Below are positions 1 through 22,195 of a stretch of DNA of 23,896 nt, piece after piece. Each line of letters starts with the position of its first letter. The stretch's first letter is position 1. A program made the position numbers and the translations under genes. This DNA comes from Hydnum rufescens UP504 (taxonomy: Eukaryota; Basidiomycota; Agaricomycetes; Cantharellales; Hydnaceae). A model generated the notes under the pieces. It saw nothing but the letters and a program-made list of their open reading frames with translations. It did no database searches and had not been told where the DNA came from. The DNA lies in assembly GCA_014904985.1 (NCBI GenBank), contig MU129017.1, positions 26,156 to 50,051 on the forward strand, written 5' to 3'.

Positions 1-3000
1 AGGGGAGAGAGAAATATAAAAGGGTAGGAGGTGTGCACTAACCATCTATGGGGACAAAACACCAAGAGGACATCAGCAAGCAATGATGTATTTAAGTCTA
101 AGACATCTGGACTCACAGACTGGATTGTCAATGCAACCACAAGAGGAATGAGCAAGGCATGATGCATTAAATTCCAAGACATCTGGACTTACTTCCTACA
201 TTGTCAATGCCATCAAAAGATGGATCAGTGAGGATGGTGGATCAAAATTCTATGAGATTTCAACTTACAACCTATATTGTGAATGCCACCAAAAAAATGA
301 ATCAGCAAGGCACAATGCATTGAATTCTAAGACATCCAGACTTACACCCTATGTTGTGAATGCCACCAAAGATGAATCATCAAGACACAATGCATTGAAT
401 TCTAAGACATCTAGACTTACATGCTATGTTGTGAATGCCACCAAAAGATGAATTAGCAAGGCACAATGCATTGAGTTATAAGACATCCAGACTCACAGGC
501 TATGTTGTGAATGCCACCAAAAGATGAATCAGCAAGGCACAATGCATTGAATTCAAGACATCTAGACTTACATACTATGTTGTGAATGCCACCAAAAGAT
601 GAATCAGCAAGGCACAATGCATTGAATTCTAAGCCAACCAGACTTACAAACTATGTTGTGAATGCCACCAAAAGGTGAATCAGCAAGGCACAATGCATTG
701 AATTATAAGACATCCAGACTTACATACTATGTTATGAATGCCACCAAAAGATGAATCAGCAAGGCACAATGCATTGAATTCTAAGACATCTATACTTACA
801 AGCTATGTTGTGAATGCCACCAAAATGATGAATCAGCAAAGCACAATGCATTGAATTCAAAGACATCTAGACTTACACGCTATGTTGTGAATGCCACCAA
901 ACAATGAATCAGCAAGGCACAATGCATTGAATTCTAAGACATCTAGACTTACACCCTATGTTGTGAATGCCACCAAAAGATGAATCAGCAAGGCACAATG
1001 CATTGGATTCTAAGACATCCAGACTTACACCCTATGTTGTGAATGCCACCAAAATGATGAATCAGCAAGGCACAATGCCTTGAATTCTAAGACATCCAGA
1101 CTTACAAACTATGTTGTGAATGCCACCAAAATGATGAATCAGCAAGGCACAATGCATTGAATTTTAAGACATCTATACTTACACCCTATGTTGTGAATGC
1201 CACCAAAAAATGAATCAGCAAGGCACAATGCATTGAATTATAAGACATCCAGACTTACAAACTATGTTGTGAGTGCCACCAAAAGATGAAGCAACAAGGC
1301 ACAATGCATTGAATTCTAAGACATCCAGACTTACATACTATGTTGTGAATGCCACCAAAAGATGAATCAGCAAGGCACAATGCATTGAATTCTAAGACAT
1401 CTAGACTTACACCCTATATTGTAAATGCCACCAAAAGGTGAATTAGCAAGGCACAATGCATTGAATTCTAAGACATCTAGACTTACATGCTATGTTGTGA
1501 ATGCCACCAAAAGACAAATCAGCAAGGCACAATGCATTGAATTCTAAGACATCTAGACTTACATGCTATGTTGTGAATGCCACCAAAAAATGAATCAGCA
1601 AGGCACAATGCATTGAATTCTAAGACATCTAGACTTACACCCTATGTTGTGAATGCCACCAAAAGATGAATCAGCAAGGCACACTGCATTGAATTCTAAG
1701 ACATCTATACTTACAAACTATGTTGTGAATGCCACCAAAAGATGAATCAGCAAGGCACAATGCATTGAATTCTAAGACATCCAGACTTACACCCTATGTT
1801 GTGAATGCCACCAAAAGATGAATCAGCAAGGCACAATGCATTGAATTCTAAGACATCTAGACTTACACCCTATGTTATAAATGCCACCAAAAGATGAATC
1901 AGCAAGGCACACTGCATTGAATTCTAAGACATCCAGACTTACAGGCTATGTTGTGAATGCCACCAAAAGATGAATCAGCAAGGCACACTGCATTGAATTC
2001 TAAGCATCCAAACTTACAGACTATGTTGTGAATGCCACCAAAAAGATGAATCAACAAGGGACAATGCATTGAATTCTAAGACATCTGCACTTACTTCCTA
2101 CATTGTTAATCCAACCCAAAGATGTATCAACTGTTAACCATTCTTCTGAGGATGTGTGATATGGACTTACATCCTACAGTGTTCAGGTGACCAAGCAATC
2201 CATCAGCCAGGCCCCTTGCATCAAATTCTAAAGATCCCAGCTTACCCTCTATGTTGTCAATACCATTCACAAGAGAAATCAGCCAGCAGTGGTATGGAAT
2301 TGAACCCTCCAGACCTACCCCCTTTGTTGCCAATGCAAAAGATGAATCAGGCAGCAACCATGCCTTAATCAATATGATATCTGGACTTACATACTAAAAT
2401 GTCACCCAAGATACCTCAACCAAGTACCTTGCCATGAATGGTCAGAGACACAAACTCACCACCTTACATTGTCCATGCCACCAAGAATGTGTCAGCCACT
2501 GAGTATGCATTCAATTGCCAGAGACCTCAACATACATTCTACATTTTCAATACCAGGCATTAGTCAACACCCATATATCACATGGTGGGCAATGCAACTC
2601 ACTTCCTAAATTGTCAATGCCACCAAATGATGAATCAGCCTGCAATCCTGCATCAAATTGTGAGAGGTCCTGAGCCCACCAGCTACAATGTTGATACCAT
2701 TGATGGGATCAGCCAGCACCACACACTGACTTCAAAGGGAGCCAGGCTTACCTCCTAGGTTGTCACAGTCATCCAGAGATGTATGACCCAGTGATTGTGC
2801 ATCAAGGAGGTATCAATTAGAACTTACATTCTCCATTATTAATGTCACCAAAGAATATATTGGCAGTGACCCCACATTGAATTAAAGGAGATCCAAACTT
2901 ACATGCTACATTGTCAATGGGACCAAACAATGTATCAGAGAGTGACCATGCATTAAATTGTAGGAGATTCAGGCTTACTTCCTACATTGTCCATGTGAGA

Positions 3001-4698
3001 CAAAGAAATATCACTCCACACTTGTGTGTTACATTGGAAGAGAACCAGACTTACAGCCTACATTGTCAATGCCACCAAATCTATCTCAGCCAACCAGCAT
3101 TGATTCATTACTAAGGAATTCAGACTTACATTCTATGTTGTCAGTCCCACCAATGAAGGTATCAGTCCTACATCCACCCATGGAAGGCAGGTGACATCCA
3201 CTTACTTCCTATTTCATCAACCCCACCCAATGATATATCAGACAGCACCCACACATCAAACTGGGAGGTACCCAGGCTTACATGCTACATTGGCAATGAC
3301 ATTGAAAACAATGTATCAACTAGGACATAATGATAGTGGGGATAGACTCACATCCTACATTGTGAATACCACCCATTGATGTATCAACCTGTGACCCTAC
3401 ATGAAATTGTAGGAGAAGCTGCCCACCAGCTATGTGATGGTGAATGCCACCAAAAATGGATCAACAAGCAATCAGACAAACTCAAAAGGGAGCCCACATT
3501 CTTGATTGCCAATGTTATCCAGTGATGCATCAGCCAGGGATGGTGCATCAAGGTGGAGAGCCACACTTACATCCTATGTTATCAATGTCACCAAACCATC
3601 CACTACCTGTCAGTGACCACACATCAAATTGGAAGATATCTAAACATACAGACTGTAATGTCAATGGAACCAAACAATGCATGAGCTATCAACAAAGGAC
3701 CACAGATCAAATTGTGAGAGAACTGGACTTACTGCCTACATTGTCCATGACAGAGGAAGAAATATCAGCCCATACACACATCAAATTGCAACATATACTG
3801 ACTTTCTACAGTGTCCATCATCAATCATCCAATGACAGATCAGCTAGTAACCATGTGCCAACTCATAGGAATTCCCAACTTACATACTATATTGTCCATG
3901 TCATCAAATGATGTATCAGCCACTAACCACCCATGAATACTTGGAAATATGAACATACTTCCTATTTTTTTGATCCCACCAATGATGTATCAGCCAAGGA
4001 CCTGATATTGAATCCACACTCACATACTATATTGTGAATGTCATCAAAATATTTGTCAGTTAGCCATGCATTGGATTCCAAGACATCTGGACATACATCC
4101 TAGTGTTAATGCCACCAAAAGATAGGCAGTCACTAATCATACATCAAATAGCATGGGAAGCCAACCCACATTCTATGTGTTCATCCCACCAAAAGTTCTA
4201 TAAACTCATGACCACATATCAAGATGTGAGGTGCAGTCTTACCTCCTACATTGTTCACATGACCAAGGGATATATCAGCTGGCAATGGTGCAGATCCAAA
4301 GGTGAGAAATGCATACTCACACACTACATTTTCATGCCAGCCAAAGATGTAAACACAGCAATCCCACATCAAATTCTAAGAGATGCAAACTCACCCCCTG
4401 CATTGCAGATTCCACCAGAAGTTGTATCAGGGAACAGCCATGCATGAAATGGTGGGAGCTCCAGACTCACATACTGTTCCAATGACATCAAAAAATGTAT
4501 CAGCCAGCTACCATGTATCACATTGTTGGAGATCTGGACTGACCAACTGCATTGTCAATCCCACAAAGGGAGATGTAAGCCAGTGATCATGGAACAAATT
4601 TTAGTGCCTGCTCCCATACCTCCTATGTTGTCAATGCCATCCAATGAACCAATTATGCCACAATCAGTACATTGCTCACAAGTGACAGAGTCACTCAC
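1..4698 (-). repeat. Tandem array of intron-like units of about 76 bp, homogeneous at left and diverged at right
   Basis: The period is 75-77 bp from about 117 to 2171 and 65-83 bp from 2171 to 4698. Units at left (about 270-2095) are nearly identical: plus-strand landmarks are GAATTC, AGACATC, CTTAC, a variable triplet, CTATGTTGTGAATGCC, GATGAATCAGCAAGGCA and CAATGCATT. Units between 2171 and 4698 keep only scattered matches. What they keep is, read on the minus strand, GTAAG/GTGAG at the start, CTGAT in the middle, and GGCATTGACAATGTAG-like sequence at the end. The unit length is not a multiple of three, so straight reading frames through it do not persist and the plus-strand open frames here are not credible genes. 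Confidence 0.95.
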
Positions 4699-4773
4699 CA
4701 TGAGAATCCTGAACCTGCTATCTGCACATAACTGGGTTTCTTCATCTTCCCCAGGTCCCGGGGTCCTGGTCAT
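43..4773 (-). CDS. Gene of about 62 single-codon exons behind a GTPase-like anchor exon (partial at left edge)
   Basis: No known family recognised. On the minus strand an anchor exon (4773-4699, ATG at 4773-4771) encodes 25 residues: an acidic stretch, then ADSRFRILM. It ends at a GTGAGT donor. From there to 43 every repeat unit is an intron of about 62-80 nt, and successive introns are separated by exactly 3 nt. The trinucleotides start (plus coordinates) at 43,117,193,269,346,421,497,572,648,724,800,877,953,1029,1106,1183,1259,1335,1411,1487,1563,1639,1715,1791,1867,1943,2018,2095,2171,2246,2319,2391,2460,2536,2603,2680,2752,2828,2903,2979,3055,3130,3206,3282,3352,3427,3498,3571,3650,3733,3803,3884,3959,4024,4097,4170,4243,4321,4395,4471,4544,4620. 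All 63 donors are GT and all 62 acceptors are AG. Because the anchor ends in phase 0, each trinucleotide is one codon, and none is a stop. The first twenty residues after the anchor read ELYGCENDYEYKASDNLDHE. The proximal 34 codons are rich in E/N/D and the distal 28 in G/F/Y/H. The last trinucleotide (43-45) is followed by GTTAGT, so the gene probably continues past base 1. Seen: the geometry. Inferred: that it is transcribed and spliced this way. It could instead be a satellite of intron-like units or a recursively spliced intron. Confidence 0.6.
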
Positions 4774-6052
4774 GAAGTTCCCTGAACATAGTCAAATTGT
4801 ACCATTATCTCATTGATACAACTTGAGACCGGACCTTCAGCTCCACCATGAAGGACACTACAAAATAAACACAGCTGTTAATCACTATCAATCCATTGAA
4901 CATCCAGACTCACCGTTCTAAAACATATATGGTATGAACCCGGCGATTTCTTTTCCAAACCGTAAGCTCAAGCAATGATCTCTGGGTACCAGGTGGAAGT
5001 GCATCTATAGTGGTTTGAAGAAGTTGGGCACACAATGCTACACTCTGCTTGGTATCTTGATGCATGTCTTCAAGCCATAGATTTAATTGCCAAAATCACG
5101 ACTCGGATAGAGTATACATACTTCCAACCCTGGCGAAACCAGCAGGTGGGTATCGCTCCTTCTGAAATTCTGTCTCGAGTCCGTGAACAAATTCAGCCAC
5201 TTTTTGCTTCACTTCCGGGGCACAAGCAAGGAAATCGGATGGGCTGGCAGTAGAGTCGAGAACCGCACTCCTAACTTTCATCTCTCTTCCATCCAACTTC
5301 GTGAAGATCCCGATAACAGGCACTAAACGGAGACATGGGTCAGTGCGTAAAATAGGGTCGAAGGGTGCAGCTCAGGGACATACCTGATGCTGTGGATTTG
5401 GAGAAAAAGCCTGACTGTAGGAATCCAAAGGGCCTGTCATTATCTGTTGGAATGCAGAGCCTGTAGCAATCGATGAGTCAAAGTATGAGGACGTCATAGG
5501 GGAACGCACCAAATTGCATGCAACTGCTGTGAAGGCGAAGCTAACGAGCGCTTTTGAATAAATTTCCAGACGGCCTGGAGCTCCTCGACCCCTCCCGCCT
5601 CGAAACCACCAGAGTCGTGGAAAACGAAGTCAGAGTTTGATGCGTAAGTGATTTCGTCGTCGATATTGTGGATCCCTCGCTAGATGGTATGAAAACATTG
5701 AGTAACCGGCGTGTACGATTGCTCGAATGACTCTTACTTGATCGTATCCCCTGGGGACTTCCTTGATCTGAGAGAGAAAGGGATGCATTAGACCAGCAGC
5801 TCTATTGAGTTGAATATCTGTAGTAATTACACGTTTTCCGTTCCGCTTCACTATAGCCGCGCCGGCGGGGCTGTCTGTTAGTCGTTCGAGCAGAGTGGTC
5901 TTTCCTGCGTTCGCCGGTCCGAGTATGAGGATCCTGAAGCGCTTGTTTCTCCTGTCTTCGTCGGGGACTTCTTCGTCGGGGACTTCTCCGTCGGGGACTT
6001 TCTTGGTGAGTTTCTTGGGGAGCTTAACATGCTTGCGGATGGATGTCCACAT
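4770..6052 (-). CDS. P-loop GTPase (G-domain protein), seven exons, intact
   Basis: Predicted small-GTPase-like protein of the fungal family with an HDS-x-GF switch; GTP binding and hydrolysis are expected, and no partner can be inferred. Exons (minus): 6052-5831, 5767-5738, 5679-5510, 5460-5384, 5322-5122, 5067-4914, 4857-4770. Introns are 49-63 nt, all GT-AG, and phases agree throughout, giving 313 residues. G1 is GPANAGKT after RFRILIL (about residue 40), G3 is FHDSGGFEAGG, then the family-typical LHAIW/LCIPTDNDRPFG segment, and G4 is FTKLD following VPVIGI. The N-terminus is acidic (PDEEVPDED). No membrane helix is seen. The start is the first ATG before the P-loop. The stop TGA (4770-4772) overlaps the ATG of the array anchor exon as ATGA. 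Skipping 4782-4834 (weak GTCCGG donor) or 4782-4819 would instead join the frame to the array. The donor of the last intron (GTGAGTCTGGATGT) resembles the array introns. Confidence 0.85.
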
Positions 6053-6467: not shown

Positions 6468-8695
6468 ATGCCACTCCTCCAGTTCCTCCCTTGGCGACGC
6501 CGCTCTCCTATGCCGGATCGTGCAGCTAGCCCTGATACCGAGGATTCCACTTATCCAGGCACTAAAACTTCCCGCGAGACTGCGGTACTTCAAGCACCAG
6601 CATCAACCAATCCTACCAACGTGCCGCAGGACTCCTCCCCGCTGAGGCCCACCACCGACACTCTCCTAGAGGATTCTAGGTACGCTACGTTCCTCACCTA
6701 TACCCCCCGTCAGTGCTCGGGTAGCGTCGCTAGGTTCAGGGTCCTCGTTGTGGGAAAAGTAAGCCATGCATCCTTTCTGATCCATTTCACTCACTGTAAA
6801 GCATTTTCAGTCAGAGGGTGATCAATGCAGTATTCGGTGTCGACAACCTCACTGTGCGTTTTCTTCTCCTTCCCCAAATCCTGCATTACTTGATCCCGAT
6901 GCATGCTATAGAGAACCTCCAATGACCATTCCATTCAACACGATATTGATCAGCCACTCGCCCCTGATGACAACCATCGACTCATTCTACGCGATTCACA
7001 AGGATTCCTTGGTGGAGATATAAAGAATCTTAAAACGGTTCAAGAGTTCATCAAGAGGAAGGGCGCAGAAAGGGAGCTTAAGGACAGGCTACATGCTATT
7101 TGGTGCGTATAATCTCGCCTTTTCTACAGAGCGCCCCCATGAGATCCTCATTTCTCACGCCTCTAGGCTGTGCTGCGAGATTCCTGTTTCCGGAGGTCGA
7201 ATTTACGAGCGAGGAGATGAAATACTCCTCCAGGACGATACCAACAAGCGTATATTGATCGGTTCTCGCGAAACTGGTGTTTCTACGCTGACCCTTGGCG
7301 ATGTATCATCCTGCATCCCCTCAGGTCCCAATCATTGTCGTATTCACCAAGTACGACTAGCTTGTGATCCAAAAGAAGTTTAGTCTCGCAGAGTCTCTTG
7401 CTGATGACAGAGCCGAATGGGAGTGTCGAGCCAACAAAACTGCTACGGAGGCCACCAAAGTTAGCTGTGAGAAGCCCCTCAACGCGGTGGCAAGCAATAG
7501 ACATGCATGGACCGAGGTTTCTGGTATGTACTATTGGTCGGACGACATTTATTCTCACGCTGATAGAGTCTGATTTCTAGCAAAGGACGAGTACAAAGAC
7601 ACTATCCAGAGACTGATCAACCTCACAATGAACTCTATCCTCGGTGTTCCTACAAAGGCCACTGATCCGAAAACCCAGGCACCGACGGGCGAGGGTGCCG
7701 CTGATTCAGAGCCACCGAATCTTGAAGACTGGCTCTTCGCAGCTGCTCAAAGAGGTGGTCTTGGAACAAATATCTCAACATCGATTGCGTCAGCCCAATC
7801 TATTCACTATCCCTGGTCTAACGTTCACATTCTGATATGATATCTTCCAGCGTCGGGCGGCACAGTGCGTCCATTTTGGAAACACGAGAGATTCCGACCT
7901 CATGTCCACCATTTCGTTTCCATAGAGTATTGGGGCTATATGTTCTCCGGAGTGTTTACCGGCATACCTCTTGATGAATGCATTGGGGTCATCCATGATG
8001 ACATCGTCAACGTCTGGAATTTTAATGACCCAAACCATCAGGCACGTCTTGCATCGGTCGTTGTGCAGCGGTTGTTCGCAGAGTAATCGAATTCTTGTAT
8101 GTAGTGTCGGAAGTCCGCAGAATTTCGGGGCCTGATGACGCATCTGGTGACAGATCTTGCAGCAACCGGCCGAATCCTCCGACTCCCGTCCTCTAGATCT
8201 AAATGACAAAGTCTGAGACGGAACTCACCCAGCATCGATAACACCGTAAAGATTGTCGGCTCCCGCGGTTGGTGTGGCTACGAGTGCGCCGCCTTCAGCG
8301 CCGTATGTCCTTCCGGCTGCAATTGCTGTGGCGCTGGCTTCATGGGCCTATACAATTTACCAAAGAACCTGGGTGTCCATTATGCGTGGGTGAAGCTCTA
8401 GTTAAATTATGCTATACTACAGTCCCGAAATCCTTCGATACCTGATGGGATATGTAATCGACCTCATCATTGTGATGACCTGTCTATTTGCCTTGGTAGA
8501 TTCCCGTGGATTGGATCGGATATCTCCTGCGATGGTCAATCTCGTGCTGAGGATGTATTCACAGTATAAGGGCAGCATCCATGAGCAGGTCAAGTCGTAT
8601 GTCAACGACACCACCCTCCCGGGGTTGAGACCGAAGCGGGCAATCAACCGGATCTCTGAGCTTGAGGGTACAAGGACCTTGATAAGGCCGTGAAA
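6468..8695 (+). pseudogene. P-loop GTPase paralogue, P-loop lost and frame broken
   Basis: Same family as the minus-strand GTPase next door. Traceable exons: 6468-6758, 6815-6853, 6912-7102, 7167-7278, 7325-7523, 7581-7788, 7851-7864, 7926 to about 8050, then pieces to 8695. Landmarks in order: RFRVLVVGK, then directly RVINAVFGVDN across the first intron; the switch LILRDSQGFLGGD; LKDRLHAIW/LCCEIPVSGGR; VPIIVVFTKYD; SIAVGRHKYWGYMFSGVF; the helical region with CIGVIHDDIVNVWNF; and a C-terminal hydrophobic pair (LPAAIAVALASWAYTIYQ, then EILRYLMGYVIDLIIVM from 8430). Lesions: the second half of the P-loop (GxGKS) is missing at the intron 1 junction; a TAG stands directly after KYD (7358-7360); and one extra base near 8259 is needed to explain the frame change before the hydrophobic region. 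The splice pattern around 8050-8260 and 8340-8410 is unresolved. Calling it a pseudogene is an inference from these breaks. Confidence 0.7.
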
Positions 8696-20614: not shown

Positions 20615-21770
20615 CGTGTCTAAGACACACCTGAGGAGTATTTTTAGGGAATTTTTTTCTAAGTTCACTATATAGACATGCCTAAAATAGCCCGCCGCAG
20701 GCACCGCCCGGGAGGGTTTGTTCACCAGCTGGAGAGTGTTACAGGTCTAATTTAGGCATGTCTAATAAGATATTTTCTGGAGCCTTAGAGGTGTCTATCA
20801 TCTGTACTGTGTGTCTACTGGTGTCTAAATCAAACATTTTGAGCCCAAGGCCCCAGTGGCAGCACTAATAGGATGTCTAATGGTGTCTACTAGTGTCTAA
20901 ATTAAAACAAAGGCATCTCATGGTGTCTAATAGTGTCTAATAGTGTCTAATAGTTCTAATAGTATCTAAATCAAACATTTTGAGCCCAAGGCCCCCAGTG
21001 GCAGTACTAATAGGTGTCTAATGGTGTCTACTTGTGTCTAAATTAAAACAAAGGCATCTCATGGTGTCTAATAGTGTCTAAATCAAACATTTTCCCAGGG
21101 CCCCTGCTTGGGTCATGGTACTGGTGGGGGTCTAATGGTGTCTAGATCAATAATCATGGTACTATTTCAGGTGCATGTCTACTGTCTAAATTGAAACAAA
21201 AGCATCTGCTCAGGGGACATCATTAGGTGGTGTCTCATGGTGTCTAATGTCTAAGTCAACACTTGTGGATGCATGCCTACTGGTGTCTAAATCAAACATT
21301 TTGGCACCAAGGCACCTGCTCAGGTGGCATTACTAAGAGGTGTCTAATGGTGTCTAGATCCCTTAATTGTGGCTTAAATTGTGGGACTCTGGTGGATGCC
21401 TGCCTAGTAATGTCTAAATCAAACTTTTTGACATAAGGGCACCTACTCAGGTGACATCATTAGGTGGTGTCTAATGGTGTCTAAATCAAACATTTGACAT
21501 AAAGGCACCTGCTCAGGTGGGAGTACTAAGAGATGTCTAATGGTGTCTAGATCAGTAATTGTGGGACCATTGCAGATGTGCATCTACTAGTGTCCAAATC
21601 AAAACAAAGGCAACTGCTTGGATGACATCATTAGGTGTTTCATGGAGTCTAATGCTGTCTAAATCAATAGTTGTGGTTGCTCCTGTGGATGTCTGTCTAC
21701 TACTAATCTCTGACCCAAAGGTGCTTGTTCAGGTGCCCTAGGTAGGGTCCAAATGGTCTCTACATGAATA
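20615..21770 (+). repeat. TGTCTA-rich degenerate tandem region
   Basis: TGTCTAA/TGTCTAG occurs dozens of times, often as GGTGTCTAATGGTGTCTA. It lies within longer repeated blocks that share AATCAAACATTTT, GGCACCTGCTCAGGTG and AACAAAGGCATCT. Such dense short motifs are typical of subterminal regions of large DNA transposons. It lies 3' of the KDZ-like coding remnant on the minus strand, so it may be that element's end. No gene seen. Confidence 0.8.
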
Positions 21771-21954: not shown

Positions 21955-22195
21955 ATGCATAGACATGCCTAGATATTCTGAAACTGGTCTAAACATGTGT
22001 GTCTATACATGTCTAGGTGTGTCTAGCAGTAGCATGCTCTAGATGTGTGTCTAGGCATGTCTAGATGCATGTCTAGCATGTCTAGCATGTCTAGATCTAG
22101 CATGTCTAGGCATGTCTAGACATGTGTCTAGAGCATGTCTAGACATGTCATAGACATGTCTAGGCATGTCTAGACATGTCTAGGCATGCCTAAAG
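21955..22195. repeat. Palindromic TCTAGACATG cluster
   Basis: About twenty copies of CATGTCTAG/CTAGACATG variants in 240 bp, many forming the self-complementary TGTCTAGACA. The motif is related to the TGTCTA field to the left but is denser and readable on both strands, as expected for an array of dimer-binding sites. Confidence 0.8.

Follow-up and report, generated by a model that had tools for sequence, protein, structure and literature searches.

Single-codon exons in series: a G-domain gene family of Hydnum rufescens likely spliced one amino acid at a time

Can a segment of a protein be encoded by exons of a single codon each, set out by the dozen in an unbroken series? This question is raised by a stretch of 23,896 nucleotides (nt) from the hedgehog mushroom and agaricomycete Hydnum rufescens UP504, order Cantharellales (contig MU129017.1, positions 26,156 to 50,051; hereafter the window, with positions counted from its first letter), in which a minus-strand tandem array of intron-like units leaves three bases between each unit and the next. 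The array, designated copy C109 among those of the 63.2-Mb genome, forms the 3′ portion of a G-domain (GTPase-like) gene whose start lies near position 6052. Sequence comparison indicates that in this gene, very probably, the array exons comprise one codon each and are spliced intron by intron, one amino acid being added per step; the reading is likely because related proteins in the databases carry codons 1 to 28 of the array already joined.

The C109 array consists of 62 introns of 62–80 nt, all bounded by GT and AG, which extend from a donor at 4698 to an acceptor ending at position 46 (minus strand). The distance from AG to the next GT is exactly 3 nt in 62 of 62 spacers, with 63 GT donors when the one at position 42 is included, and no stop codon occurs among the 62 triplets; the recount thereby reproduces the spacing reported in an earlier sequence-only reading of this locus. 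A branch-like motif, which that reading had placed in every unit, was recovered in 52 of the 62 introns (CTGAT, CTAAT, TTGAT, CTGAC or CTCAT within the last 45 nt). In the diverged units 1–36 the longest periodic chain reached 35 with three-base spacers; no other spacer from 0 to 15 gave more than 6, and 500 mononucleotide shuffles gave no more than 4. Among the near-identical later units other spacers chain as well (a spacer of seven gives 29), and periodicity alone is therefore little proof there. Three parts can be distinguished along the minus strand: a conserved head of 35 introns and 35 single-codon exons (2095..4698; ELYGCENDYEYKASDNLDHENAEHNELENVYGRDE), of which codons 1–28 are those found joined in relatives; a variable region, in which 23 near-identical introns alternate with single-codon exons that are hypervariable and all of the form NNT (346..2094, units 37–59; SPGGFGHHGYFGFGGRLYFYPHG); and an array end of four single-codon exons, V, E, S and M (43..345), which corresponds to the VESMDL or variant that closes the sister arrays. 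The 63rd donor (GTTAGT, 37..42) follows, and just below position 1 the contig turns to N over the approximately 650 bases inspected, which makes the 3′ end of C109 unreadable.

The joined codons emerged when the spliced product predicted for copy C32a was used in a word-based protein search, in which six of 25 candidates had E <= 1, namely P0001 to P0004 (jgi proteins) and P0005 and P0006 (H. rufescens gene models). In P0001 and P0002 the anchor exon, which immediately precedes the array, is fused to 28 joined codons (ELYGCENDYEYKASDNLDHEKAEHDALE); in P0003 it is fused to 11 (ELYGCENDYEY), followed by translated intron 12, and in P0004 to nine (ELYGCEKYY), followed by translated intron 10. With 28, 28, 11 and 9 codons thus joined, these proteins are the decisive and independent evidence that single-codon exons are joined in relatives, and all four also show upstream exons of the same gene (YVLER|VL..GA.G|NIM) joined across ordinary introns. 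The contigs behind them are 931–1641 bases long, the two 28-codon cases measuring 931 and 1186 bases. Since 28 times about 73 bases, or about 2 kb, exceeds either length, the introns are absent from these two contigs, for which alone size is sufficient to exclude them. From the missing introns and the contig sizes we infer that the four sequences derive from RNA.

The splice states behind these proteins were compared with the genomic copies by removing all introns, or by removing introns 1 to j and retaining the next (j = 0–39). P0003 was best fitted by the removal of introns 1–11 and retention of intron 12 in 12 of 14 copies (28 of 32 residues with C133b), and P0004 by the removal of introns 1–9 and retention of intron 10 in all 14 (14 of 15 residues with C32a). 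After codon 28, the string in P0001 and P0002 ends in DSRYHID, the last six residues of which equal the translated start of intron 32 behind GTAAG (5 of 14 copies), and the D preceding them stands at the place of a GAT codon in C6 and C14; this end would be accounted for if two codons had been skipped and the AAG behind the GT of intron 32 used as an acceptor. The loss of upstream introns while the next is retained weakly suggests a 5′-to-3′ order of splicing, weakly because a caller of open reading frames (ORFs) would report only such cases. P0005 and P0006 cover the anchor without joined codons, and the annotation of P0006 appears to read array introns as coding, with VSLEVPPFHAWLFPDTTSG resembling translated intron 4. 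The expectation of the sequence-only reading that splicing would yield one codon per exon is thus borne out for the first 28 codons, in relatives, and would apply by extension to the remaining codons and to the C109 locus itself.

The triplets themselves carry a coding signal. No stop occurs in 598 pooled triplets from 14 chains, where column shuffles gave a mean of 26.7 stops and a minimum of 12 in 5000; when each distinct state was counted once (98 states), shuffles averaged 3.5 stops and were free of them in 1.2% of cases, and among the intron triplets of that alignment the share of stops is 5.5%. The chains had been picked by splice-site quality and not by stop avoidance; a poorer parse of AGGAAGTAAGT would produce TAA. 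Across 13 copies no variation is seen at 10 of the 31 head codons, compared with 157 of 1757 equally wide intron windows (Fisher p = 0.0003); at the amino-acid level the invariant counts are 12 of 31 and 278 of 1757. At codon positions 1 and 2, variability exceeds that of the introns in group A (7 copies; 21/70 vs 443/2471, p = 0.017) and group C (2 copies; 19/72 vs 353/2405, p = 0.011) but not in group B (3 copies; 11/68 vs 277/2382, p = 0.25), and across all 14 copies it falls below that of the introns (29/64 vs 1264/2104, p = 0.020). An earlier count of splice-site invariance held by construction, since the chains require AG and GT. In a count that made no use of the labels of the other copies and left out C14 (only 18 units aligned), the dinucleotides at the splice-site columns of C109 were retained by 12 other copies in 411 of 411 (AG) and 423 of 424 (GT) ungapped cells; away from splice sites, AG and GT within the introns were kept in 68% and 70%, and indels broke 2 of 412 AGNNNGT blocks versus 814 of 3645 intron blocks of equal length.

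The array belongs to a gene family. The core of the array unit was found at 722 places in the genome (control, 0), and the matches listed (about 100 of the 722) cluster in arrays of the G-domain family instead of lying in scattered genes. The end of the anchor exon with its donor, at up to three mismatches, was found at 47 genomic sites (reversed control, 3), and all 14 of the heads read among these 47 open into AG-NNN-GT chains that share their first codons, ELYG.E..YEY. Kept across the 14 heads are E6, Y9, E10, Y11 and N16 and, where aligned, also L27, Y31 and D34; differences in head length between copies mostly reflect losses of whole intron-plus-codon units. The C2 array lacks a clean head, and the head of C133a falls beyond the sequence covered. 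The frame stays open through the whole array in C6, C32a, C133b and the readable part of C109, and C133b comprises 85 single-codon exons (78 + 1 + 6). A contiguous, intron-free copy of the head was searched for in the genome and none was found, all 33 matches lying on the anchor exon and ten of them extending 3–7 residues further. One chain of ATG triplets (C133:33059-32293) was considered as a further array and rejected as a microsatellite; in L023 (2440–3110) a microsatellite of the GATGGTGATGATGGAGAGATG type mimics an AG-ATG-GT chain. In the window itself, tandem repeats of units like GTGTCTAATA and TGTCTAGACA occupy 20811–21554 and 21995–22192.

Upstream of the array, seven minus-strand exons between 6052 and 4699 join in frame across GT...AG introns of 49–61 nt. 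The first G-domain exon (5738..6052), delimited by its ORF, by in-frame joining and by the boundary in gene models P0007 and P0008, contains GPANAGKTT, which we take to be a P-loop-like motif. The following three, 5510..5679 (RGIHNIDDEITYASNSDFVFHDSGGFEAGG...), 5384..5460 (LCIPTDNDRPFGFLQSGFF...) and 5122..5322 (VPVIGIFTKLDGREMKV...), are placed by the same models and by in-frame joining. Exon 5 (4914..5067; NMHQDTKQSV...RRVHTIYVLER) has its 5′ junction crossed by P0002 and P0004 and its 3′ junction by P0001–P0004, and exon 6 (4835..4857; VLHGGAEG) is joined to N(I/F)MTR in these same four proteins. The anchor exon (4699..4781; NFMTRTPGPGEDEETQLCADSRFRILM) joins in frame and is connected to the upstream exons in database proteins, which makes it an internal exon and not the 25-codon leader with which the sequence-only reading had opened the gene. 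Its ATG was accordingly discarded as a start codon: the database proteins read through it, and C4, C178, C267 and C32b have ATA or GTG in its place. P0007, which matches copy C32a, and P0008 are H. rufescens gene models that take in the G domain plus the anchor exon and end in the first array intron; the UniRef name of P0007 is 'G domain-containing'. Pfam matches were sub-threshold for both Arf (21.2 bits, cut-off 22.3) and MMR_HSR1 (18.7 bits, cut-off 21.9), at E 0.0002–0.002. In scans of the joined product and of P0007 and P0008, no NACHT, NB-ARC or WD40 was detected and all matches were sub-threshold, mostly to GTPase and AAA families; the spliced array with its tail gave no Pfam match. On the plus strand, a divergent ORF at 6468–6821 with ARFRVLVVGKVS resembles the start of another P-loop G-domain gene and had no Pfam match at E <= 0.01.

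Within the variable region, introns and codons behave very differently. Mean intron identity is 94.6% in C109 (23 units), 94.2% in C133b (42) and 96.3% in C14 (35), and over the same unit pairs agreement is 31%, 34% and 26% at codon position 1, 27%, 30% and 43% at position 2, and 100%, 95% and 100% at position 3, a T. Pairs with identical introns bear different codons in 1 of 1, 18 of 22 and 30 of 33 cases, respectively (49 of 56 in total). The sharing of codons does not track intron similarity (permutation p 0.65, 0.13 and 0.43). Recent block duplication was rejected as the source of the codon strings, with one repeated four-codon block in each of C133b and C14 and none in C109, and with no visible effect of the distance between units. 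In C166 (14 units) the introns are 81% identical, no two are the same and the third base is less fixed. Because the head introns of C109 and C14 are 98% identical (18 units compared) and their variable strings are unlike, turnover of the variable part appears to be rapid. These hypervariable codons between near-identical introns, like the upstream G-domain exons and the gene family, had no place in the sequence-only reading.

The end of the array is shared as well. In nine aligned copies, VESMDL or its variant (APEDL, ASKDL) is followed by an intron and by what is predicted to be an exon of six bases (DD or DN); further on, the shared sequence ends in a conserved stop (IDEYT[AP]L). The downstream exons are predicted to run through GIKASVPLLKVL, then CTGDCLSWLVKLVVILWIR and on, and the predicted tail includes a hydrophobic stretch with a mean of 1.8 over 19 residues; the tail of C109 falls in the N stretch of its contig. 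When spacers were counted without any preference for three, in units matching the common acceptor and donor (C10 and C32a having too few matches), C109, C6, C14, C133a and C133b had a spacer of three in 104 of 104 matched units. C6 has lost one acceptor and has two GC donors, and is still in frame; C14 has one acceptor lost, odd spacers and a stop.

Several observations weigh against the proposed splicing. All four joined proteins end within the array, through a retained intron or an apparent mis-splice, and none is a complete product; among database proteins none was found to cover the variable region or the tail, two of 66 candidates being H. rufescens models that end at the anchor, and a search with the predicted tail exons yielded 0 of 4 candidates. 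The source of P0001–P0004, taken above as RNA-derived, is given as 'jgi' only. In mean conservation the head triplets diverge like introns, and average conservation was therefore dropped as a proof of coding; nor are head codons with at least five states enriched (5/31 vs 229/1757 intron windows, p = 0.59). Outside the 598 triplets stops do occur, TAG and TAA in C14 and one TAA in C133a (array fragments), and how many near-identical units there are, and in what order, hinges on the assembly. In C2, C32b, C123 and C164 (arrays L011, L018, L021 and L026) the spacer is three in 52 of 85 matched units, the rest being of 2 or 4 bases and one of 6; C164 is readable from head to tail but out of frame in that parse, and C32b and C123 are not readable throughout. 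In the matched-unit list of C32b, several four-base spacers are followed by a two-base one. The mixed spacers look as if the variable bases also underwent small insertions and deletions, and the irregular copies may be decaying copies or assembly faults.

Some of these points could be met by a gene in which the head alone is productively spliced, later units being skipped or retained, so that the protein ends within the array and the variable codons stay mostly untranslated. The joined proteins do end after codon 9, 11 or about 28–29, and the silence of the database on variable region and tail fits this alternative too. We nevertheless consider it unlikely: the hypervariable codons keep a nearly fixed third T and are free of stops in four in-frame copies, the array end (VESMDL or variant) and the downstream tail are common to nine aligned copies, and ORF calling on short contigs combined with word searches from one copy would miss complete products. 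A plain 76-bp satellite in one large intron, its splice-like motifs incidental or mere ratchet points and its triplets never part of an mRNA, would explain why later units are near-identical tandem copies and why the mean conservation of the head triplets does not exceed that of the introns. The joined codons of P0001–P0004 contradict it for codons 1–28, in relatives, and we give it hardly any credence, given also the 0 of 598 stops, the preservation of splice sites and spacing where other intron bases change, and chains that in the diverged units form for a spacer of three only.

The joined codons could themselves have come from genomic, intronless retrocopies and not from mRNA contigs, as the source type of the four proteins is unstated. 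This we judge improbable, because no intronless copy was found in the genome (33 matches, at most seven residues past the anchor), two different introns are retained, and a retrocopy would itself have been made from spliced RNA. Compatible with one-codon splicing is a further proposal, concerning origin, by which a mobile, introner-like intron was inserted repeatedly between existing codons. Introner-like elements are known from some fungi (PMC4457414), the same intron flanks different codons in 49 of 56 identical-intron pairs, and intron similarity is no guide to which units share a codon. It would be extraordinary, however, for insertions to fall every three bases; the listed core matches (about 100 of 722) cluster in arrays and not in scattered genes; and head introns differ from one another but match across copies, which implies that the array was copied as a unit. 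Such an origin thus appears doubtful, about as much so as splicing confined to the head.

Under the preferred reading, splicing of the array one codon per step, the introns, being short (60–80 nt), would be subject to intron definition and be excised in succession, and each three-base exon would become the end of the growing 5′ exon, a ratchet resembling recursive splicing with one codon per click. The downstream codons would then form a hypervariable peptide whose two flanks, a head (ELYG...) and a tail (VESMDL..., then the predicted hydrophobic segment), are fixed. With three-base spacers throughout and introns that are almost alike, recombination inside the introns or skipping of exons would keep the frame and alter the peptide only, and codons of the NNT set cannot be stops. 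The most likely use would be a role in recognition, either allorecognition or defence. Considerably more tentative, and in our view somewhat less probable than its converse, is the broader idea of a fungal generator of diversity that works one codon at a time: a 76-base cassette would consist of an intron plus a near-random NNT codon, cassettes would be gained, lost, reordered or skipped in frame, a process changing the codon would spare the intron, and about 45 GTPase-like genes would carry open-ended hypervariable peptides, probably for self/non-self discrimination. A gene spliced one codon per step would be, as far as we know, the most extreme exon structure, every amino acid of a protein segment being its own exon. 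Such a gene puts to the test the minimum size of exons in series, the accuracy of splicing over dozens of steps and the use of introns as homogenised spacers around hypervariable codons. Since both P0007 and P0008 break off in the first array intron, the structure is invisible in the annotation, and other genes of this kind may lie unrecognised elsewhere.

In the open-licence PubMed Central (PMC) literature searched, no gene with dozens of consecutive single-codon exons is described, which agrees with the sequence-only reading, whose author knew of none. The nearest structural parallels are flatworm micro-exon genes (MEGs), which have many small exons, defined as <=36 or 70 nt (PMC8293314, PMC7653826). 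With those of schistosomes and tapeworms the Hydnum arrays share runs of short exons in multiples of three that can be skipped in frame; they differ in having 62–85 consecutive one-codon exons, near-identical later introns, a fungal host and an attached G domain. Under a structural definition of at least seven exons, half or more of them micro-exons (<70 nt, divisible by three) with a run of at least four (PMC7653826), the 62 consecutive 3-nt exons would make a micro-exon gene, if spliced as proposed. As to homology with MEGs, the six of 25 candidates with E <= 1 in the word-based search were all H. rufescens or jgi proteins, in a search that included no direct MEG comparison. Aphid bicycle and megacycle genes likewise form rapidly evolving families with many microexons, more than 100 in one gene (PMC9168663), but encode another protein in another host, and the account cited makes no mention of repeated intron cassettes or one-codon exons. 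Single microexons of 1–3 nt are spliced in APC11, VPS55 and CYP621A, in plants and others (PMC4674806, PMC8831610, PMC12940212); these stand alone in ordinary genes, whereas the Hydnum arrays hold dozens.

In the proximity of AG to GT, with a new donor formed after each step, the array resembles recursive (ratchet) splicing. Drosophila ratchet points are of zero length (PMC4674806), unlike the Hydnum array, which leaves three coding bases per step: instead of AG directly before GT, as in a zero-nucleotide exon, three bases lie between them in 62 of 62 cases. Like introners, the introns are near-identical and present in many copies; introners insert in many genes across a genome (PMC9860276), whereas those of Hydnum are stacked one codon apart in one family. 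A further parallel is offered by the HNWD genes of Podospora (het-d, het-e and het-r), in which concerted evolution homogenises the repeats while diversifying selection acts on four codon positions in each unit (PMC2873952). The G-domain gene is not an NWD-type NOD-like receptor by domain content, the Pfam scan having detected neither NACHT or NB-ARC nor WD40. As in the NWD repeats, units are homogenised while few codons diversify; the unit in Podospora is a translated WD40 repeat of a NOD-like receptor, whereas in Hydnum the homogenised part is the intron, and one codon per unit would be translated.

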